The translations under genes were made by a program, and so were the position numbers. Below, in pieces: positions 4,971 to 57,113 of a DNA stretch of 64,000 nucleotides (positions are counted from its first letter, which is position 1; each line of letters begins with the position of its first letter). The stretch is from Phycisphaerae bacterium (GTDB lineage: Bacteria; Planctomycetota; Phycisphaerae; JAJVII01), in the NCBI GenBank assembly GCA_022072085.1, contig JAJVII010000041.1:1-64000 (forward strand). The letters are read 5' to 3'. The notes under the pieces were generated by a model that saw only the letters and a program-made list of their open reading frames with translations, had not been told where the DNA came from and searched no databases.

Positions 4971-5768
4971 ATGAGCGACGCGATTATTCAACTGGTGGAC
5001 CTGCACAAGTCGTTCGGCGGCCAGCCGGTGCTGCGCGGCGTCAGCGTCGAGCTGATGCGCGGGCAGACGACGGTCGTGCTGGGCCCCAGCGGGTGCGGCA
5101 AGACGGTGCTGCTCAAGCACGTGATCGGCCTGCTTCAGCCGGACCATGGACGGGTGATCTTCGACGGGCAGGATCTGACCGCGATGGGCGAGCGGGCGCT
5201 CTGCCGCGTGCGTACGCGGTTCGGGTTCCTGTTCCAGGGCGGGGCCCTGTTCGACTCGATGAACGCGGTGGAGAACGTGATGTTCCCCCTGCGCGAGCAC
5301 CACCCGCAGCAGAAGGAGCACGACGCCCGGGCCCGGGCGATGGAGTGCCTGGGCCTGGTCGGACTGGCCGACTTCGCCGGCCGCATGCCGGCGGACCTGT
5401 CCGGCGGGCAGCGCAAGCGCGTCGCGCTGGCCCGGGCGCTGACGCTGCGGCCGGAGGTGCTGCTCTACGACGAGCCGACCACCGGGCTGGACCCGATCCG
5501 CGCCGACGTGATCAACGAGCTGATCGTGCGGATGCGCGACGAGCTGAACGTGACCGGCCTGGTCGTGACGCACGATATGGCCAGCGCGTTCAAGGTGGGC
5601 GATCGGCTGATCATGCTGCACGAAGGGCAGGTGTTGGCCGACGCGCCGGCTGACGAGTTCCGCGCGCTGGACGAGCCGCGCGTGCAGCGGTTCATCCGCG
5701 GGCAGGCGGACGACGAGGACCTGAAAGGCCTGCGCCCCGGCCGGGGGCAGTCGGGAGGCGAGACATGA
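4971..5768 (+). CDS. mlaF: MlaF-type ABC transporter ATP-binding protein
   Basis: 265-residue cytoplasmic ATPase that should drive the MlaE permease. Visible motifs: Walker A GPSGCGKT at 38-45, signature LSGGQ at 143-147 followed by RKR, Walker B VLLYDEP at 163-169, and the switch histidine in VVTHDM near 201. The LSGGQRKR and DEPTTGLDP wording is typical of the MlaF/Ttg2A group. The start is taken at ATG 4971, which gives the normal family N-terminus (IIQLVDLHKSFG); the same frame is open far upstream but overlaps mlaE. Its TGA overlaps the ATG of mlaD, so the two are probably translationally coupled. Confidence 0.92.
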   Translation: MSDAIIQLVDLHKSFGGQPVLRGVSVELMRGQTTVVLGPSGCGKTVLLKHVIGLLQPDHGRVIFDGQDLTAMGERALCRVRTRFGFLFQGGALFDSMNAVENVMFPLREHHPQQKEHDARARAMECLGLVGLADFAGRMPADLSGGQRKRVALARALTLRPEVLLYDEPTTGLDPIRADVINELIVRMRDELNVTGLVVTHDMASAFKVGDRLIMLHEGQVLADAPADEFRALDEPRVQRFIRGQADDEDLKGLRPGRGQSGGET

Positions 5769-10653: not shown

Positions 10654-11289
10654 ATGGAAGCAGGATTCCTTGTCATCATTCTGCTGATCCGCGTGGTCTT
10701 CGCGATCGCGTCGGCCGCGATCGCCAGCAGCAAGGGCCGCAGCGTCCCGGGCTGGTTCTTCGGGGGCCTGTTCCTGGAACTGATCGGCCTGGTCATCGTA
10801 GCCTGCCTGCCCAACCTCAAGGCCCAGAAGGCCCGGCAGGAAGCGTCGATGTACGAGCAGCAGCGGCTGCGCGAGATGCTCCGCCAGGAGCAGATGAAGA
10901 ACGAGGCCTTCCGTCAGTACTCCACCCAGCGGCTGGACGTTCACGACCAGGCGCTGAACCTGGACACCCGCACCTACACGGCCCTGCCCGGATCCCAGCA
11001 ATATCAGCAGGCCCTGCCCGGCCAGACGCAGGAGGATCCGGCCTCGGCGCTGGCCGGCATGGCCCAGGGGCAGGGCTCCGTACAGGCCTCGACCGCGACC
11101 GGCGGCAACAACGGCCGATGGTTCTACGAGGCCGGCGGAGTGTCACACGGGCCGGTCAGCGAGCTTGACATCAAGATGATGCTGCGTGGCGGACGGCTGC
11201 CGCCCACCGCGCTGATCTGGGCCGAGCACCTGGCCGACTGGACCGCGGTCAACCGGGTCGAACCTTTCCGATCTGTTCTGGAACAATGA
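10654..11289 (+). CDS. Membrane protein with C-terminal GYF_2 domain
   Basis: 211 residues from ATG 10654 (an upstream in-frame ATG at 10597 adds 19 charged residues with no signal). Two hydrophobic segments (about 4-26 and 35-52) are followed by a charged coiled-coil region, a Q/A/G-rich linker, and a C-terminal GYF_2-type domain (PF14237): WFYEAGGVSHGPVSELDI...LPPTALIWAEHLADWTAV. Such domains are thought to bind short peptides and often cap membrane proteins of unknown function. Its stop overlaps the next start (ATGA at 11286-11289), so it forms a coupled pair with the following unknown gene. Confidence 0.75.
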   Translation: MEAGFLVIILLIRVVFAIASAAIASSKGRSVPGWFFGGLFLELIGLVIVACLPNLKAQKARQEASMYEQQRLREMLRQEQMKNEAFRQYSTQRLDVHDQALNLDTRTYTALPGSQQYQQALPGQTQEDPASALAGMAQGQGSVQASTATGGNNGRWFYEAGGVSHGPVSELDIKMMLRGGRLPPTALIWAEHLADWTAVNRVEPFRSVLEQ

Positions 11290-49030: not shown

Positions 49031-49059
49031 TTGACAGCCCCATCGTGGCCGACTATCTT
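49031..49059 (+). promoter_or_regulatory. Promoter of the oxidoreductase-flippase-esterase operon
   Basis: -35 TTGACA (49031-49036), a 17-bp spacer and -10 TATCTT (49054-49059). The start codon is at 49081, giving a leader of about 15 nt. Confidence 0.75.
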
Positions 49060-49080
49060 GGTCGGCTTCGGAGCTTACCC

Positions 49081-50217
49081 ATGAACGCACAGCGACAGGC
49101 GTCCGCAGAACCGATCCGCGTCGGCATCGTCGGCCTGGGGGGCATGGCCGCCGGTTCGCTCGACACCATCGCCCGGACGAAGGACCTGAAGGTCGTCTCG
49201 GTCGCTGACCTGAACAAGGAAGCCGTCGAGTCGGCAGCCGCCCGGTTCTCCGCCCGCGGATACACCGACGTGCGCAGCCTGATTGTCGAGTCCGACATCC
49301 AGGCGGTGATCATGTCGCTGCCGCACCACGTCTATCCCGAATTCGTGCGCCTGGCGGCTGACCGCGGGCTGCACCTGCTCAAGGAAAAGCCGCTGGCTCG
49401 TTCGCTGGAGGAGGGGCTGGCGCTTCACGATGCCTACCAGCGGGGCGGCCGCGTCTTCATGCTTCAGACGCAGCGGCGGTTCCACCCCGGCTTCGTGCAG
49501 CTCAAGGCCCGGCTGGCCGAGGCGGGCAGGCCCTTCCTCGTCCGCAGCCGATTCCTGTTCAACTGGGGCGGCGACTTCCGCTGGCGCGGCGAGAAGAGCA
49601 AGGCCGGCTTCGGCTGCCTGGGCGACGCGGGCTACCACAACTTCGACCTGCTCCAGTGGCTGTTCGGCCCGCCGCAGCAGGTCTACTCGCTCCAGGGCGG
49701 GATCGGCCGGGCCAACCCCGCGCGGCCCTACGATACCGACGACACCGGCGTGGTGGTTCTCGGCTACGAGGGCGGCATGGTCGGGCAGATCACCGCGTCG
49801 TGGGCGACGGCGGGCGAGTCGACGCTGGACGTGATCGTGCATGGCACGGAGGCGACCCTGGAGGCGACGCCGGCGCTGTTCAGCCGCCGGACCGGCAAGG
49901 AGGGCGCCGACGAGCGCGTGCGCGTGGCGCCGGCGCGGATGGCCAAGCGGACGCGAGAGGACCTGCTGGCGGCGTTCGTCGCGGCGGTCCGGGCGTCGGC
50001 AGACGGGGCGAAGACCGATTACCCCTGCTCGTCGCGCGAGAACCTGCTGACGCTGGCCGCGGTGGAGGCGGCCTACCTGTCGGCGCGGACGGGGTCGCCG
50101 CAGTCGCCGGCGCGGATGTTCGAGGTGCACGGCCGGCGGATCGAGGACTTCCGGTTCGTCGCGCGTCCGGCGGCCGGGGCGGCGCCGCCCCGACCCGGGC
50201 AGGGAGGGCAGGGGTGA
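49081..50217 (+). CDS. Gfo/Idh/MocA-family oxidoreductase
   Basis: 378 residues. The Rossmann motif GIVGLGGMAAGSL lies near residue 16. The EKP motif LKEKPLARS (about 100-108) holds the catalytic lysine. The C-terminal substrate domain follows, with GCLGDAGYHNFDLLQWLFGP split by position. The family oxidises or isomerises sugars with NAD(P). The C-terminal 25 residues (RPAAGAAPPRPGQGGQG) are low-complexity. Its TGA overlaps the GTG start of the next gene (GTGA at 50214-50217), which makes it the first gene of a tightly coupled three-gene operon. Confidence 0.88.
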   Translation: MNAQRQASAEPIRVGIVGLGGMAAGSLDTIARTKDLKVVSVADLNKEAVESAAARFSARGYTDVRSLIVESDIQAVIMSLPHHVYPEFVRLAADRGLHLLKEKPLARSLEEGLALHDAYQRGGRVFMLQTQRRFHPGFVQLKARLAEAGRPFLVRSRFLFNWGGDFRWRGEKSKAGFGCLGDAGYHNFDLLQWLFGPPQQVYSLQGGIGRANPARPYDTDDTGVVVLGYEGGMVGQITASWATAGESTLDVIVHGTEATLEATPALFSRRTGKEGADERVRVAPARMAKRTREDLLAAFVAAVRASADGAKTDYPCSSRENLLTLAAVEAAYLSARTGSPQSPARMFEVHGRRIEDFRFVARPAAGAAPPRPGQGGQG

Positions 50218-51452
50218 CCGCGCAGCGTCGCAAGAAGCTGATCTGGTTCGTCGTGCGGCTGGCTGTCTCGATCGGCGCCCTGGTCTGGGTCTTCTGGGGG
50301 ATCCAGTGGTACGACCACGCGGTCGTTCGCCTGCCGGGGCACGAAGGGACGTTCGAGCTGCGCGTCGTCGAGCGGAACCCCGACGGCGTGACGGTCGTGC
50401 GCACCGACGCTGGTTTCGCGGGCCAACGCTTCACGGTCGCCGACGCCGACATCGTCAGGAACGAAACGACCGGCGAGGCGCTGATGAAGGTCGGCCTGCG
50501 CAACGTCGTGCGCGACATCGCCTGGTGGCCGATGGCTGCGGCGCTGGTGATCTTTGGCGGCGTGCCGTTCTTCGCGGCGCTGCGCTGGCGAGCGTTGCTG
50601 CACGTGCAGCAGGTGCGGATCTCCGTCGGCGTCTCGATGAAGCTGACGTGGATCGGCCTGTTCTGCAACCAGTTCATGCCCGGCATGACCGGCGGCGACC
50701 TGGTCAAGGCCTATTACGTCACCAAGCACACCGACACCTCCAAGGCCGAGAGCGCCATCACCATCCTGGTCGACCGCATCATCGGGCTGCTGGGGCTCGT
50801 GCTGCTGTCGGCGGTCGCGATGGCGATCGTCCTGCTCGTGCCTTCGCAGGCGTCGCGGGTTCACGATCTGCCGTGGGCCTGGCTGACGCCCGGTGTGGTC
50901 GTGCTGCTGGGCGGGGCGGCCTTCTACAGCCAGACGATCCGCCGCGTGATGGGCATCAACCGGCTGATGCACCGCCTGGGCGAGAAGCACATGCTCCATC
51001 GCCTCGATCGCGCGGTCTACCTCTACCGCCATCACAAGAAGGTCGTCGCCCAGGCGTTCGGCCTGACGTTCCTGTCGCACGCCTGCCTGCTGACGGCCGT
51101 CTACCTGATCACCCGCGCGGTGCACCTGCCCGTCTCGCCGCCGTACGTGGTGATGTTCGCGTCGCTGATCTTCGTGGCCTCGGGCCTGATCCCCGCGCTG
51201 GCGGGCCTGGGTCCGCTGGAGGCGGGCTTCGTGCTCTGCTTCGCCGCCCGGGGCATCGGGTCGCAGGCGGTCTCGCTGGCCGTCGCCCTGGTCGTGCGGC
51301 TCCAGAACGTCTTCTGGTCGCTGCCCGGGGCCGCAATGATGATGCTCGGCTCGCACCTGCCCAGCCGGGCCGAGATGCGTCACGAACTTGAAGTTGGAGT
51401 TGAAGCCGAGGCCCCCCAACCCGCAGCGGCTGCGGAGGTGGTTGCCCCATGA
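50214..51452 (+). CDS. LPG synthase/UPF0104-type integral membrane protein (flippase-like)
   Basis: 412 residues from GTG 50214 (GGGAGGGCAGGGG upstream). A first helix (about 10-28) is followed by an extracytoplasmic insert (about 30-90) and then six or more helices. Family hallmarks (PF03706): GLFCNQFMPGMTGGDLVKAYY near 145-165, and ALAGLGPLEAGFVLCF near 330-345. Members include the flippase domain of MprF and proteins thought to move lipids or glycolipids. The insert is unusual: its sequence (HEGTFELRVVERNPDGVTVV) looks like a small beta domain. It is coupled at both ends to its neighbours (GTGA, ATGA). Confidence 0.82.
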   Translation: MTAQRRKKLIWFVVRLAVSIGALVWVFWGIQWYDHAVVRLPGHEGTFELRVVERNPDGVTVVRTDAGFAGQRFTVADADIVRNETTGEALMKVGLRNVVRDIAWWPMAAALVIFGGVPFFAALRWRALLHVQQVRISVGVSMKLTWIGLFCNQFMPGMTGGDLVKAYYVTKHTDTSKAESAITILVDRIIGLLGLVLLSAVAMAIVLLVPSQASRVHDLPWAWLTPGVVVLLGGAAFYSQTIRRVMGINRLMHRLGEKHMLHRLDRAVYLYRHHKKVVAQAFGLTFLSHACLLTAVYLITRAVHLPVSPPYVVMFASLIFVASGLIPALAGLGPLEAGFVLCFAARGIGSQAVSLAVALVVRLQNVFWSLPGAAMMMLGSHLPSRAEMRHELEVGVEAEAPQPAAAAEVVAP

Positions 51453-52294
51453 GTCTGCCCGACAATGTCACCCCGATCCGCGCCGTCGCCGGCGGACGCC
51501 TCTGGGCGACGATGTTCCCCTCGCGCACGCTCGACCGCCGCTGCAACGTCTTCCTCTACACGCCGCCGGGCGTGGGACCGGGCAGCCCGAAGCTGGCGAC
51601 GCTGCCGGTGCTCTACCTGCTGCACGGCATGTGGGGCAGCGAGATCGACTGGCCCTTCAAGGGTGACGCCCATAACGTGCTCGACCGCGAAATCGCAGCC
51701 GGCCGCGTCCAGCCGATGATCGTCGCCATGCCCCACGACGGGCTGACCGACGAGGGCACGTTCTACGTGGACTGGCACGGCGGCCGACGCGAGCGGTTCG
51801 AACGCTACATGACCGGCGACCTGATCCGCTTCGTCGAAACCGAACTGACCGGCCGGCGCCGCGGCCGAAGCCGTCGGATGATCGGCGGCCTGAGCATGGG
51901 CGGCTTCGGGGCGCTGGTGCTGTCGCTCCGCAACCCGCGGCTCTACTGTGCCGCGGGCAGCCTGTCGGGCGCGGTCCGCCCGATCGGCCGACCCAAACGC
52001 CGCTCGCTGGGTGACGCGATCTTCGGCCCGCTGGACCGCGACCCGGCCAGCCATCGCCGCCAGCGCGACCCGGGCGTGCTGGTCGATTCCCTCCAGCGGA
52101 CTCGGGGGCTGGGGCTCTACCTGGACTGCGGGCGGTCGGACTTCCTGATCGCGATGAACCGCAAGTTCGACCGCCAGCTCACGCGGTTGGGCATCCAGCA
52201 CGTCTACCGCGAATACGACGGGGACCATAACTGGCCCTGCTGGCACAAGCGGCTGCCGCACCTGCTGCGTTTCCTGTCCGGCCGCCTGAAGTAG
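51449..52294 (+). CDS. Esterase, D/S-formylglutathione-hydrolase-like
   Basis: 281 residues, alpha/beta hydrolase of the putative-esterase family (PF00756). Nucleophile Ser149 is in GLSMGG (147-152), Asp231 in CGRSDFL and His260 in YDGDHNWPCW. The oxyanion region is LPVLYLLHGMWGS. No signal peptide is visible, so it is probably cytoplasmic. Its ATG overlaps the flippase-like stop (ATGA at 51449-51452). In context it may release or add an acyl group in the same glycan or lipid pathway as the oxidoreductase and flippase-like protein. Confidence 0.85.
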   Translation: MSLPDNVTPIRAVAGGRLWATMFPSRTLDRRCNVFLYTPPGVGPGSPKLATLPVLYLLHGMWGSEIDWPFKGDAHNVLDREIAAGRVQPMIVAMPHDGLTDEGTFYVDWHGGRRERFERYMTGDLIRFVETELTGRRRGRSRRMIGGLSMGGFGALVLSLRNPRLYCAAGSLSGAVRPIGRPKRRSLGDAIFGPLDRDPASHRRQRDPGVLVDSLQRTRGLGLYLDCGRSDFLIAMNRKFDRQLTRLGIQHVYREYDGDHNWPCWHKRLPHLLRFLSGRLK

Positions 52295-52617
52295 TCCGGT
52301 TGCAAATCATTTCAACAAAATAAGTTGGGTTGTTTCCGTGCTCCGCGGAAGCGGTGGCGTTTCGGCCGTAACCCGGGCCATGCCTGCCACTTGGGTTTGC
52401 CAGGGGCCTGCCTGTAATCGACAATCTTACTGACCGGGTCCAGGGCGCCTGCAAGGAGGGCAAGATCGGGTCAGACCCGGGCGGCCAGGAGCCCTTGATT
52501 ATCGCCCCGCGATGTCAAGTGGCTGCCCCGAATGGCCGAAGTCTGGGGTGGATGTCCGCCGTAGTTTCGGTGGGACATCGGTGTCATTTGCCCCACCGGA
52601 AGGCAGGTGTGCTTGTG
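52295..52617 (+). promoter_or_regulatory. 323-bp leader with mutually exclusive stems before the tandem PilZ genes
   Basis: No gene is seen. The left part (52300-52335) is A+T-rich and holds TTGCAA-15 bp-TAAGTT as a possible promoter. CTGACC (52430-52435) can pair with GGTCAG (52469-52474), while CCGGGTC (52434-52440) can pair with GACCCGG (52474-52480). These two stems share bases and exclude each other. AAGGAGGG at 52453-52460 is not followed by a start codon. No known riboswitch is recognised. Confidence 0.4.
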
Positions 52618-53397
52618 ATGAATTCCGTCACCACCGTCGAGGCTGACGTTCGCGAGAACCTGCTGGGCGACGCCGCGGCGCGGAATCTGGCGGCCGACCT
52701 GGTCGTCGTCCAGGGCGAGAACCTTCAGGCCAATCTGAAGAGCCGGTTCCTCCAGCACGAGCCCGACCGGCTGCTGCTGGAGGTGCCCTCCCACAACGGT
52801 CGGCCCGTCGTGCTTCAGCCCGGGCAGTTCGTCGAGGTCTACTTCAAGGTCGGCAATGAGCGGTTCGGTTTCGACAGCCGCGTCGTCGGGTACACGCGCG
52901 TGGACTTGAACGAGCAGACGGCGGTCGAGGCCCTGGTCGTCGCGCCGCCGCACTTCCTGGAGCGCCGCCAGCGCCGCAAGTTCTATCGCATCTCGGTCGC
53001 GACGCTGCCGACGATCGATTGCCGGTTGTGGCCGGTCGACGCCGATCCGTCCCGCGCGCCCGCCGTCAAGGCCCGGCTGTGCAACATCTCGGCAGGCGGC
53101 GTGGCCGTCCTGCTGGACGGGGAGGACAGTTGTCGATTCGTCAGCGACGAGAGCTATCGCCTGCGTTTCAGCCTGCCCGAAGGCCAGTGGGCCGCCCAGG
53201 ACGAGGCGAAGCAGTTCGAGTTCGAAGCCGTGGCCTGCCACGTGCGGCACGTATTCCAGAACCGTCGGATGATCCTCGGGCTGGCCTTCCTGCCAGGCGG
53301 GGAGCCGGTCGTGCATCGAAAAGCGATCGAGGCCATCGCCCGGTTCGTGACGGCCCACCAGCGCGAGCAGCTCTTCCAGACGCGGCGGCGGGTTTGA
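52618..53397 (+). CDS. YcgR-like PilZ protein 1 (c-di-GMP receptor)
   Basis: 259 residues. The N-terminal region (about 25-110) has the beta-barrel look of the YcgR-N or PilZN domain (LKSRFLQHEPDRLLLEVPS...FVEVYFKVGNERFGFDSRVV). The C-terminal PilZ domain (PF07238) has the c-di-GMP motifs RRKFYR (119-124; RxxxR) and NISAGG (156-161; (D/N)xSxxG). It should bind cyclic di-GMP and control motility, adhesion or export. No flagellar gene is in the window. The start may be the ATG 52618, or the GTG 52609, which has GGAAGG five bases upstream. A second copy follows 73 bp downstream. Confidence 0.85.
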   Translation: MNSVTTVEADVRENLLGDAAARNLAADLVVVQGENLQANLKSRFLQHEPDRLLLEVPSHNGRPVVLQPGQFVEVYFKVGNERFGFDSRVVGYTRVDLNEQTAVEALVVAPPHFLERRQRRKFYRISVATLPTIDCRLWPVDADPSRAPAVKARLCNISAGGVAVLLDGEDSCRFVSDESYRLRFSLPEGQWAAQDEAKQFEFEAVACHVRHVFQNRRMILGLAFLPGGEPVVHRKAIEAIARFVTAHQREQLFQTRRRV

Positions 53398-53470: not shown

Positions 53471-54262
53471 GTGAGTGCGAGCCTGACCGAGATTGCAGGC
53501 GACCAGACCGCCGCTCTGCTGGCCGAGGTCGTTGACCGCAACTACCCCATCACACTGGAACTGAAACTCGGCAGCGTCTGGACGCGATACAAGAGCCGCT
53601 TCCTGGGCCAGCAGACCGGACGCCGGCCCGTCCTCTGGATCGAACTGCCCCAGAAGCTCGAGGACAACCAGTCGATCTCGCTGGACGCCGGCCAGAAGCT
53701 GGTTGCCAGCTTCACCCACTCGCAGGAGCGCTATCGCTTCGTCACCGCCGTCCTGGGCGGCGGGGATTTCGAACTCGCCGGCGGCCTGAAGACGGGCGGC
53801 CTGAGAGTCTCGCCGCCGGTGGCGATTCAGCGGGTCCAGCGGCGCAGCCACTTCCGCTACGAGATCCCGCTCCGCGCACCGATCGACGTCGCGCTCTGGG
53901 ACGGCGGCCACGCGCTGCGGGAGCAAGTTGACAAGGGCACGCGCCCGCTCTACCGCGCCAAACTGGTGGACCTCTCGCTGGGCGGGGCCCGCCTGCGCCT
54001 GCTGGGCGGGGCCGACCCGCGCCTGGGCGCCGAGGACATCATCGGCATGGTCTTCAAGCTCGATTCCAACGGGCCCGAGCTGGCCCTGGACGGACGCGTC
54101 TGCCGCGTCGTCAGGCCGCCGGGCTCCGGCATCGAGATGGGGATCCGTTTCGCCGGCCTCGGCGAAACCGCCGGCGGACGGCAGACGCTGGAGTATCTCT
54201 CCCGGGCGCTGGCTGAGATGGAACGCCGCACCATCCGCCGCTTGCGGATGGGCCTGAGCTGA
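53471..54262 (+). CDS. YcgR-like PilZ protein 2 (c-di-GMP receptor)
   Basis: 263 residues, beginning with GTG 53471. Same design as the preceding gene: an N-terminal YcgR-N-like region (KSRFLGQQTGRRPVLWIELP...LVASFTHSQERYRFVTAV), then a PilZ domain with RRSHFR (124-129) and DLSLGG (167-172). The two proteins share domain order and key motifs but differ clearly in sequence, so the pair is an old duplication or has diverged fast. It is probably in one transcript with the first gene. Confidence 0.85.
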   Translation: MSASLTEIAGDQTAALLAEVVDRNYPITLELKLGSVWTRYKSRFLGQQTGRRPVLWIELPQKLEDNQSISLDAGQKLVASFTHSQERYRFVTAVLGGGDFELAGGLKTGGLRVSPPVAIQRVQRRSHFRYEIPLRAPIDVALWDGGHALREQVDKGTRPLYRAKLVDLSLGGARLRLLGGADPRLGAEDIIGMVFKLDSNGPELALDGRVCRVVRPPGSGIEMGIRFAGLGETAGGRQTLEYLSRALAEMERRTIRRLRMGLS

Positions 54263-54296: not shown

Positions 54297-54363
54297 CATT
54301 CCGTCGCCGTTGAGCTGTCATTACGGACATAGGTCCGCCGCACGAGGCGGAAAGGGTTGCTCC

Positions 54364-55872
54364 ATGAAGCGTGCAACGCTGTGTGTTGCAGTCGTCGCTC
54401 TGTCGTTGGCGTTCCCGTTGGCCGCACCGGCCGGGGACCTGCCCAGGGAGTTCGTCCTCCATCACGACAACGTCATCGGCACCAGCCTGGACCTGACCGT
54501 CCTGGCGGCTGACGACAAGCAGGCGGCCGACTGCGAGAAGCGCGTCCTGGATGAGATTGAACGCCTGCGCAAGATTCTCAGCACGTGGGACGCGGCCAGC
54601 GAGATCAGCCGGCTGAACGCGACGGCCGAGCCGATGGCCTGCTCGGACGAACTGCTGGACGTGCTGGAGGCCGGTGAACGCTGGCGGACGCGCAGCGGCG
54701 GGGCCTTCTCCATCCAGTTGGGCGACCTGATCGCCCGGTGGAAGCAGGCCCAGAAGGAGAACAAGCCGCCGTCGGCGGAAGAACTGGCCGCCCTGGCTGA
54801 TCAGGTCCAGGGCCCGGCCTGCCGCATCGACCGCAAGGCCAGGACCGCGACCCGCGTGACCAAGGCCCGCCTGAACATCGACGGGCTGGCCAAGGGCTAC
54901 ATCATCGACAAGGCGATGGCCGCCGCCCGTGCCGCCCAGCCCGCGCCCGGCGGGATCATGATCAACCTCGGCGGCGACATCCTGGTCTGGGGGCGGTCGT
55001 CGCCGACCAGCCTGCTCTGGCCGATCGCGGTGGCCGATCCCTCTCACAGCGAGGACAACGCCCCGCCGCTGACCGAGCTGCGGCTGGGCGGAAGGGCCAT
55101 CGCCACCAGCGGCGACTACGCTCGCTTCTACAACATCGAGGGCAAGCGTCACTCGCACATCCTGGACCCGCTGACCGGCGAGTCGGCCGACCGGATCATC
55201 AGCGCCAGCGTCGTCGCCCCCGACGCGATGACCGCCGACGTCCTGGCAACGGCCCTGTGCGTGCTGGAACCCGACGAGAGCCTCAAGCTGCTGCGCGCGA
55301 TGCCCGGCGTTGAGGCCCTCATCATCGCCGCCGACAACAAGCAGTTCCACACGCCCGGCTGGGAGGCGCTGGAGACCCCCGAGGCCCGCAAGTCCCACCA
55401 GGCCGCCGAGTCGGCCGGCGGCAACTGGCCCGCCGGTTTCAAAGTCGACATCGCCCTGACACTGGTTTCGCTCAACAGCGGGCGGCGCGAGCACCGGCCC
55501 TATCTGGCCGTCTGGATCGAGGACGATCGGGGCAAGCCCGTCCGCACCATCGCCCTGTGGGGCCGCGAGGCGAAGTATCTCCGCGACCTGAGCACCTGGT
55601 ACCGCTACGCCCGCAACGACCCGGACATGATCCGCCGCGTCAGCCGGGCGTCGCGGTCAGCCGGGAACTACACCCTGGTCTGGGACGGCGCCGACGACGC
55701 CGGCAAGCCGCTGCCCCGTGGGCAATACACCGTGCGCATGGAGATCAATCGCGAGAAGGGCCGACACATCTCCAACATGTCGGCTGCCATCAACTGCGCC
55801 GACAAGCCCGCCGCGGCGACCATCCCCGGCAACAGCGATGTGGCCAACGTGAAGATCCAATACGGCCCTTAG
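54364..55872 (+). CDS. apbE: ApbE FAD:protein FMN transferase fused to DUF2271
   Basis: 502 residues. Signal peptide about 1-23. The ApbE domain (about 30-340) has NVIGTSLDL, the LNIDGLAKGYIIDKAM segment (170-185), INLGGDILVWG (200-210), HSHILDPLTGES (264-273) and the metal motif PDAMTADVLATALCVL (286-301). ApbE attaches FMN to a threonine in target flavoproteins in the periplasm. A DUF2271 domain follows (PF10029, about 358-485: ALTLVSLNSGRREHRPYLAV, WDGADDAGKPLPRGQYTV). Both domains also occur as separate proteins near PepSY genes in other bacteria, and here a PepSY protein gene follows. No FMN-accepting protein (for example NqrC or RnfG) is encoded in the window. Confidence 0.9.
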   Translation: MKRATLCVAVVALSLAFPLAAPAGDLPREFVLHHDNVIGTSLDLTVLAADDKQAADCEKRVLDEIERLRKILSTWDAASEISRLNATAEPMACSDELLDVLEAGERWRTRSGGAFSIQLGDLIARWKQAQKENKPPSAEELAALADQVQGPACRIDRKARTATRVTKARLNIDGLAKGYIIDKAMAAARAAQPAPGGIMINLGGDILVWGRSSPTSLLWPIAVADPSHSEDNAPPLTELRLGGRAIATSGDYARFYNIEGKRHSHILDPLTGESADRIISASVVAPDAMTADVLATALCVLEPDESLKLLRAMPGVEALIIAADNKQFHTPGWEALETPEARKSHQAAESAGGNWPAGFKVDIALTLVSLNSGRREHRPYLAVWIEDDRGKPVRTIALWGREAKYLRDLSTWYRYARNDPDMIRRVSRASRSAGNYTLVWDGADDAGKPLPRGQYTVRMEINREKGRHISNMSAAINCADKPAAATIPGNSDVANVKIQYGP

Positions 55873-55922
55873 AGCGTGTATGAAAACCTACGCGATCCCG
55901 TGTAGTTTTTCATACACGCTCT
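55871..55922 (+). repeat. Long perfect hairpin repeat between apbE and the PepSY gene
   Basis: Sixteen-bp arms AGAGCGTGTATGAAAA (55871-55886) and TTTTCATACACGCTCT (55907-55922) are perfectly complementary. After one mismatch the stem continues about seven pairs inward (CTACGCG/CGTGTAG, one G-T). The arms differ in base composition from the flanking genes. It may be a mobile repeat that now serves as terminator or as an RNA-stability element. It starts at the apbE stop codon. Confidence 0.8.
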
Positions 55923-55936
55923 TAGTGAGACCCCGC

Positions 55937-56524
55937 ATGAGCCCCGTCCTTCGCCGCGCCGTTTCGCTGCTGCGGACGCTGCACATTTACCTGACGATGC
56001 TGGCGCTGCTGCCGCTGGCCTTCATCGCGCTGACCGGCCTGATGCTCAACCACGAGTCCTGGTTCGGCCGCAACCGCCAGCCGATCGTCCACAAGCAGAC
56101 CGGGCAGTTCCCCAGCCAATCGCTGAAGGCGCCCGACAAGTTGGCCGTCGTCGAGCGGCTCCGCTCGCACTTCGACGCCGAAGGCGCGGTGGACAGTTTC
56201 GAGAGCGACGAGAACGAGGTCCGCGTCGTCTTCGCTCGGCCCGGCCGGCGCACCGATGCGTTCATCGACCGCCAGACCGGACAGGCCGAAGTGACCCACG
56301 AGTATTCCGGCGTCGCCAGCGTGCTGACCGACCTGCACAAGGGCAAGACGGCCGGCCGCACCTGGCGCTGGCTGATCGACGCGATCGCCATTCTCCTGCT
56401 CGTGGCCGCGGTCACCGGCGTGGCGCTCTGGCTGACGCTGCCCAGGCGTCGATGGCTGGGCTTGGCGGCGCTGGCTGCCGGCGTCGCCACCTGGCTGACG
56501 GTCTACTTCCTGCTCGTGCCCTGA
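55937..56524 (+). CDS. PepSY-associated transmembrane protein
   Basis: 195 residues from ATG 55937; an earlier in-frame ATG at 55880 lies inside the hairpin repeat. A first helix (about 15-38: LHIYLTMLALLPLAFIALTGLMLN) is followed by a PepSY-like loop (about 45-130, DKLAVVERLRSHFDAEGAVD...VTHEYSG), then two C-terminal helices (about 150-170 and 177-195). This is the short PepSY_TM type (PF03929/PF16357-like). In other bacteria such proteins work with ApbE, DUF2271 and iron-reduction or flavin-based redox proteins at the membrane. The 64-bp gap to apbE is filled by the hairpin repeat. Confidence 0.78.
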   Translation: MSPVLRRAVSLLRTLHIYLTMLALLPLAFIALTGLMLNHESWFGRNRQPIVHKQTGQFPSQSLKAPDKLAVVERLRSHFDAEGAVDSFESDENEVRVVFARPGRRTDAFIDRQTGQAEVTHEYSGVASVLTDLHKGKTAGRTWRWLIDAIAILLLVAAVTGVALWLTLPRRRWLGLAALAAGVATWLTVYFLLVP

Positions 56525-56576: not shown

Positions 56577-57113
56577 ATGAGCAGCCACACACACTACGCG
56601 CTGGTTCCGACCTCCCGCGGCGTCGCCGCCATCCTGTTCACCGACGCCGGCGTAACCCATTTCGTCTGGCCGGCTTCCTCCTCCGCCCGGGCCGCCGATC
56701 GGGCGCGGGCGCTCGAGCCGTCGGCCAAGCCTGCCGACCCGTCCCGCCTGCCCAGCCGACTCGCGGCCCGCGTGGCCGACTACTTCGCCGGGCGTGAGGC
56801 CGACTTCTCCCGCGTCCCGCTGGATCTGGCCGACTGCCCGCCGTTCCAGGCGCGCGTGCTCAAGGCCCTTGCGAAAGTCGGCTACGGCCGCACCGTGACC
56901 TACGGCCAACTTGCCCGACGCGTCGGTCGGCCGGGCGGCGCCCGCGCCGTCGGGCAGGCGATGGCCCGCAACCCGATCCCGGTCATCGTGCCCTGCCACC
57001 GCGTGCTGCGGAGCGACGGCGGGCTCGGCGGGTTCTCGGCTGATGAAGGCGTTGCCCTCAAGGACCGGCTGCTGGCGATGGAGCGAGCCGGCGCGAACCA
57101 GGCCGGCGGCTGA
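56577..57113 (+). CDS. ogt: Methylated-DNA-[protein]-cysteine S-methyltransferase
   Basis: 178 residues. The active-site motif IPVIVPCHRVL contains Cys140 within PCHR (139-142). The helix-turn-helix segment TVTYGQLARRVGRPGGARAVGQAM (split by position) precedes it. It takes the methyl group from O6-methylguanine in a suicide reaction and repairs alkylated DNA. The length is like Ogt, with no Ada-type N-terminal domain. GGGG lies before ATG 56577, 52 bp after the PepSY gene. Possible co-transcription with apbE has no functional logic. Confidence 0.92.
   Translation: MSSHTHYALVPTSRGVAAILFTDAGVTHFVWPASSSARAADRARALEPSAKPADPSRLPSRLAARVADYFAGREADFSRVPLDLADCPPFQARVLKALAKVGYGRTVTYGQLARRVGRPGGARAVGQAMARNPIPVIVPCHRVLRSDGGLGGFSADEGVALKDRLLAMERAGANQAGG

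Follow-up and report, generated by a model that had tools for sequence, protein, structure and literature searches.

Three overlapping genes lie in a 64,000-nucleotide stretch of a Phycisphaerae bacterium (GCA_022072085.1, contig JAJVII010000041.1, positions 1 to 64,000; hereafter the window), and they encode a Gfo/Idh/MocA sugar oxidoreductase, a flippase-like membrane protein and an esterase. A preliminary description had read them as a dedicated route that modifies, flips and trims a lipid-linked sugar. Our analysis points instead to the middle gene, whose modelled product combines the fold of the MprF flippase with an SH3-like insert. We consider it about an even chance that this protein is a translocase for lipid-linked sugar, possibly tied to cyclic di-GMP (c-di-GMP), and that the trio is a lineage-specific junction in which the oxidoreductase and the esterase are lineage-specific neighbours and no conserved pathway is formed. 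The flippase family itself is known; the subfamily with the SH3-like insert and its company of PilZ and GT-C-type proteins are new here and make a fair lead. Members of the subfamily neighbour a GT-C-type protein in one clade and PilZ in several, which allows a guess at substrate and control that experiments can test, in a bacterial class of which few members are cultured. The features of the trio are:

49031..49059, plus strand: sigma-70-like promoter match, TTGACA-17-TATCTT, 10 of 12 bases, a consensus match only
49081 (ATG)..50217 (TGA), plus strand: Gfo/Idh/MocA oxidoreductase, 378 amino acids, EKP at residue 102 (Pfam, motif)
50214 (GTG)..51452 (TGA), plus strand: LPG_synthase_TM/UPF0104 flippase-like membrane protein, 412 amino acids (PF03706, TIGR00374, model with MprF flippase fold)
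50313..50495, plus strand: SH3-like beta insert, flippase residues 34-94, helix 1 to helix 2, predicted to be extracytoplasmic (model, alignment)
51449 (ATG)..52294 (TAG), plus strand: PF00756 (feruloyl-esterase-like) hydrolase, 281 amino acids, GLSMGG at 147, DCGRSD at 226, GDHNW at 258 (Pfam, motifs)

Fold and insert of the flippase

UPF0104 flippases are widespread and, to our knowledge, their substrates are mostly unassigned apart from MprF. The window protein scored 141.9 bits with PF03706 (cut-off 33.4) and 73.1 bits with TIGR00374 (cut-off 43.2), was the sole match in its own genome (5.49 Mb, 72 contigs) at an E-value of 0.001, and belongs to a family matched in 53 of the 61 class-sample genomes, its own counted. 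No solved structure, MprF chains included, was found for it by sequence or by profile search. An AlphaFold model built from 40 sequences (mean predicted local distance difference test, pLDDT, of 90) scored Z 18.4-20.9 against six MprF chains in VIA-align, with 284-290 residues aligned, and the first five rows of a Foldseek search were MprF entries, at E-values of 2.6e-3 to 8.5e-3 and none below 0.001. As modelled, the protein has the fold of the MprF flippase domain (PDB 6LVF, 7DUW, 7F47, 9GOE, 9J8Q, 9J8S), and we infer from the model that it translocates lipid. The family scores and this fold bear out the preliminary assignment to the LPG-synthase/MprF type. In a 40-row alignment of hand-chosen, mainly full-length proteins, E336 is invariant and R362 is kept in at least 90% of rows; compared by spacing only, the two are 26 residues apart, against 24 for E295 and R319, the conserved Glu-Arg salt bridge of PaMprF (PMC11980842).

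Unlike MprF, the window protein has no aminoacyl-phosphatidylglycerol synthase domain: PF03706 is its sole Pfam match at an E-value of 0.001, and it ends at 412 amino acids. In this it resembles stand-alone members of the LPG_synthase_TM/UPF0104 family (PF03706, TIGR00374) such as GpgF, named a predicted flippase (PMC12713373), and archaeal arCOG00899; the family is described both as glycosylation flippases and as a domain of MprF (PMC5898192). What it adds to these stand-alone members is an SH3-like insert of about 60 residues, which is also present in 34 of the 39 other alignment rows; to judge from length alone (model residues 4-385, chain residues 28-342), MprF apparently lacks it.

The extra beta insert after helix 1 had been noticed in the preliminary description, and the model indeed places four strands there (residues 35-38, 47-55, 58-62 and 72-76). 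Residues 32-95 matched barrels of the SH3-like and tudor kinds with Z scores of 4-6; since these structural matches include unrelated proteins, they indicate a common shape and not a function. Insert length is bimodal in the 40 aligned flippases when counted between reference residues 30 and 103, with 62-107 residues in 35 rows and 13 or 25 in five, and the flanking D34 and G94 are conserved in at least 90% of rows. The protein has one strongly basic loop (239-275, 10 K/R), which marks the cytosol and therefore puts the insert outside, counting helices through an MprF-like re-entrant hairpin, if that is kept. We infer that the insert lies in the first extracytoplasmic loop. The insert-bearing subfamily is mostly planctomycetal in our sample; one insert-bearing row is labelled Arenicellales, reflecting either an extension beyond planctomycetes or a binning error. 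As delimited here, the flippase reading frames of loci L108 and L136 each contain one internal stop codon.

PilZ and methyltransferase genes near the flippase

Behind the esterase, the window continues with five further genes:

52612..53397, plus strand: PilZNR-PilZ protein with RKFYR and NISAGG (Pfam, motifs); coordinates of the scanned stretch, with the start codon uncertain
53471..54262, plus strand: second PilZ protein with RSHFR and DLSLGG (Pfam, motifs)
54310..55872, plus strand: ApbE/DUF2271 protein in the gap from the PilZ pair to the methyltransferase (family match)
55880..56524, plus strand: PepSY_TM-like membrane protein (family match)
56577..57113, plus strand: 6-O-methylguanine DNA methyltransferase-type protein (PF01035), a recurrent flippase neighbour in relatives

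Neighbourhoods were compared in 101 distinct flippase loci, left from 120 once duplicates were taken out. This is a biased sample, in which a sample of the class is mixed with the 80 best loci of 135 found with one pattern. Genes in relatives were called with a simple home-made caller, which gave wrong starts in places and missed the flippase in L033, L058 and L063, where it was recovered by tblastn or profile. PilZ genes lie within 6 kb of the flippase in 26 of the 101 loci on any side or strand, and downstream on the same strand in 19. In 20 loci, the window among them, the methyltransferase stands behind the flippase on its strand and no more than 6 kb away.

In the sampled genomes, both genes are near the flippase more often than gene density predicts. 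Among 40 of the 53 flippase-bearing class-sample genomes, treated as independent with relatedness ignored, PilZ was found downstream on the same strand in nine, against 0.07 expected within 3 kb (0.6 on any strand within 6 kb), and the methyltransferase in 11, against 0.03 expected. Near hits came from home-made profiles (E-value at most 1e-5) and the PilZ background density from Pfam matches, so the PilZ ratio may be inflated. On a quick tree of 97 flippases (four short sequences dropped from the 101, 32 of 94 inner branches left open), presence of PilZ changed 16 times, in several separate parts of the tree, that of the methyltransferase eight times and that of the GT-C neighbours once.

RxxxR together with [DN]x[SA]xxG, a pattern that allows Ala for Ser, occurs in 40 of the 44 PilZ proteins scanned, both window proteins included; the set also holds two proteins of L032, a locus without flippase. 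We take RxxxR and [DN]xSxxG to be the PilZ motifs for c-di-GMP reception. Nine GGDEF matches in the window genome make it probable that c-di-GMP is produced.

The sample includes only one genome from the window's order and family, a draft in 720 contigs with 87% completeness, so within-family conservation rests on a single draft relative. In the window, the ApbE/DUF2271 and PepSY_TM-like genes separate the PilZ pair from the methyltransferase, and the relative retains the PilZ-PilZ-PepSY order.

A clade with GT-C-type neighbours

In one clade, the flippase is flanked by two large membrane proteins: one of about 700 residues directly upstream in 17 loci (c0), the other of about 595 residues directly downstream in 13 (c2). 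Neither found a match in profile searches against solved structures, and Pfam gave nothing convincing for c0. For a model of c0 (pLDDT 74), the best structural match was ArnT (Z 20.8, 440 residues), ahead of other GT-C enzymes; c2 showed weak PMT matches in two of 11 members and a PMT_2 match in one of 11. Beyond the structural match, we presume both to be of GT-C type. GT-C enzymes draw on lipid-linked sugar donors (PMC11127046), and a flippase between two such proteins therefore suggests that this clade's flippase brings lipid-linked sugar donors out. The earlier idea of lipid-linked sugar movement thus gains indirect support from one clade, while its extension to a dedicated three-gene pathway does not.

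The clade resembles three-component extracytoplasmic glycosylation systems, composed of a lipid-sugar synthase, a flippase and a GT-C enzyme, in that a flippase stands beside an ArnT-like protein. It differs in that the flippase is of UPF0104 type, whereas those systems use a GtrA/SMR or MATE type (PMC11127046), and in that no donor synthase was identified here. The window genome has eight PMT_2 matches, seven of them over the cut-off. Several loci (L072, L073, L080, L082, L088, L110 and others) show, in this order, an ArnT-like protein, the flippase, a second membrane protein that weakly matches PMT and a Memo-like protein, and some of these have convergent PilZ genes behind, up to three in a row.

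Weighing the preferred reading

In the mechanism that we favor, the centre of the trio would be an MprF-fold lipid translocase with an SH3-like domain in its first extracytoplasmic loop, and this domain may hold a product or a partner outside. The most telling recurrent neighbours of the translocase are PilZ proteins, so that its output may be linked to c-di-GMP. On the upstream side of the flippase, the window's family has a cytosolic sugar oxidoreductase that is standalone elsewhere; on the downstream side it has an esterase, probably cytosolic, which remains with the PilZ pair in the one relative.

Several observations weigh against this reading. PilZ was not seen in the DNA available for 75 of the 101 loci, and 14 of the 101 have less than 2.5 kb of downstream DNA. 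In the same-family relative, the available DNA around the flippase (8.6 kb before it, 3.3 kb behind it) contains no PilZ gene; PilZ genes stand beside the esterase instead, and the genome of this relative gave no methyltransferase match. The methyltransferase has no obvious functional link to the flippase (56 of the 61 sample genomes have a match, 49 of these 56 a single one), and a DNA-repair gene that recurs as often as PilZ shows that neighbours can persist where no functional relation is evident. In the GT-C clade, PilZ occurs in six of 18 loci, convergent and not in the same operon; the window flippase lies outside this clade and, unlike the flippase of three-component systems, has no GT-C gene adjoining. 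The insert scores low in fold comparison (Z 6 or less) and had no match in Pfam, where three of six other inserts gave weak rows at chance level. For MprF of P. aeruginosa, scrambling of lipids with broad specificity has been reported (PMC11980842), so that a phospholipid would be an equally possible substrate. The missing PilZ in most loci, the recurrent repair gene and the broad MprF substrates together make both the substrate and its control guesses. Among the open-licence papers listed in our searches, judged by titles and the beginnings of abstracts, none linked the UPF0104/YbhN/MprF family with PilZ or c-di-GMP.

The same evidence bears on the explanation that survives best next to ours, namely that the protein is an ordinary, MprF-like phospholipid translocase whose neighbours, PilZ included, are unrelated to it and are together through shared descent. 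MprF chains are indeed its best structural matches, and its neighbours are heterogeneous across the tree, the methyltransferase among them. Against it stand a PilZ proximity well above the density expectation in the sampled genomes, the return of PilZ at several distinct places of the tree, the pairing of the flippase with GT-C-type proteins in one clade and the absence of the MprF synthase domain. We regard this explanation as credible though doubtful. An extended form of the preferred reading, in which an MprF-fold translocase is switched by PilZ and its SH3-like domain passes lipid-linked sugar to GT-C glycosyltransferases, appears unlikely; if it were true, planctomycetes would gate surface glycosylation at the flipping step.

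The three-gene order

The coordinates confirm the three open reading frames, their order and the 4-base overlaps at both joints (GTGA between oxidoreductase and flippase, ATGA between flippase and esterase). The gene identities also hold, with best Pfam E-values of 1e-24 for the GFO_IDH_MocA domains, 3.8e-41 for LPG_synthase_TM and 1.2e-28 for Esterase, all over cut-offs. The oxidoreductase has both Rossmann and C-terminal domains and an EKP motif; in the esterase, aligned with 7xrt, the nucleophile Ser in GxSxG and the Asp and His are in place, and the 7xrv chain carries Ala in place of this Ser, with Asp and His conserved. EKP is a motif of the Gfo/Idh/MocA family, and Ser in GxSxG forms the triad of PF00756 esterases together with Asp and His.

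These joints, behind one promoter match, speak for a dedicated operon in which the oxidoreductase modifies a lipid-linked sugar in the cytosol, the flippase exports it and the esterase removes an ester group. As the mark of a special unit, the overlaps were rejected: they are ordinary for the window, which has further 4-base joints at 11286/11289 and 47290/47293 and perhaps at 5765/5768, where the start of the first gene is unsure. The single good promoter of the preliminary description stands as a 10-of-12 consensus match. Such promoter-like sites number three in 5 kb (both strands), against 0.6 (standard deviation 0.9) in shuffled sequence, and a co-directional gene ends 66 bases before the oxidoreductase start, so read-through from upstream is possible.

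The order oxidoreductase-flippase-esterase was found in none of the 100 other distinct flippase loci, and we therefore rejected it as a conserved unit. The full order, whose conservation had been proposed as a check, is present in none of the relatives examined; the oxidoreductase-flippase pair is kept in one, the same-family relative (L031), where the oxidoreductase (54% identity) adjoins the flippase (48-51%) with a gap of 169 bases by the chosen start and no overlap. There, a GntR/LacI-type regulator follows the flippase, and the esterase (62%) is on a separate contig, followed by two PilZ genes and a PepSY protein, kin of the genes behind the window's esterase. Because the two pieces are separate in the relative, the window trio joins an oxidoreductase-flippase piece with an esterase-PilZ piece.

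Elsewhere, both partners are rarely near the flippase. Two of the 101 loci (the window and L031) have an oxidoreductase as the immediate upstream neighbour on the strand of the flippase, and a match to its profile lies within 6 kb on any strand in eight (these two and six others). One of the six is L123, where a weak relative (22% identity) is the divergent neighbour of the flippase; the same gene occurs in L060. Relatives of the window oxidoreductase (E-value at most 1e-30) were present in ten genomes outside the family, in a search that scored only 32 candidates in some genomes, and none stood beside a flippase, which led us to reject it as a regular partner; the two genes are on different contigs in all ten except one, where they are about 127 kb apart. 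Nor do the oxidoreductase relatives share a neighbourhood of their own across eight loci (L151-L158), only one neighbour family being common to two; the oxidoreductase gene of L153 was missed by our caller. Only in the window does the esterase come next behind the flippase. Relatives of it (E-value at most 1e-20) occur in six genomes outside the family, in one of them near the flippase and antisense; in L077 and L101, esterase relatives lie antisense beyond a methyltransferase, 1.5-1.6 kb downstream of the flippase, a placement that may be counted in favor of the dedicated operon.

A further point in favor of the operon is precedent. The closest three-gene sets that we know of, gpgSDF of P. 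aeruginosa and hexSDF of C. difficile, likewise place a UPF0104 flippase with two adjoining genes around a lipid-sugar theme, as synthase-deacetylase-flippase operons (PMC12713373). Their partners are a glycosyltransferase and a COG3233 deacetylase, whereas those in the window are an oxidoreductase and a PF00756 esterase; no glycosyltransferase and deacetylase of that type were found next to the window flippase, so only the flippase is shared, and the window order is not conserved. The trio itself lacks a glycosyltransferase. No signal peptide was seen in the esterase by eye; it is probably cytosolic and hence unlikely to trim anything after flipping. With the triple absent elsewhere and the esterase apart in the relative, the modify-flip-trim route is not upheld, and adjacency in the sole same-family relative leaves the dedicated operon a slim chance.

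Least probable of all is a sugar catabolism unit with flippase and esterase as passengers, in which the oxidoreductase acts with the GH123-like, TIM-barrel isomerase and TauE/SafE-type membrane protein genes found upstream by Pfam scan: the six genes are co-directional with joints of -4, 90, 66, -4 and -4 bases, and TIM-barrel isomerases often act together with Gfo proteins when sugars are broken down, but none of the three upstream genes occurs in the 13 kb around the oxidoreductase-flippase pair of L031.

Other recurrent flippase neighbourhoods

Further gene arrangements recur around the flippase. In L044, L077, L101, L120, L129 and L132, genes for a protein kinase and a calcineurin-like phosphoesterase adjoin each other and are divergent from the flippase, one representative of each family having been tested. 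A relative of the 2-hydroxyglutaryl-CoA dehydratase D-component lies just upstream and a PHP/CehA-McbA-like gene just downstream of the flippase in L033, L043, L046, L061 and L074. Seven loci labelled Verrucomicrobia, Lentisphaerae or PVC group (L114, L118, L125, L135, L139, L140 and L143) have a xylose-isomerase-like TIM-barrel gene upstream, directly so in six of the seven. Finally, genes for acetyl-CoA carboxylase carboxyltransferase alpha and a phosphoribosyltransferase are located upstream of the flippase in L039, L045, L049 and L051.

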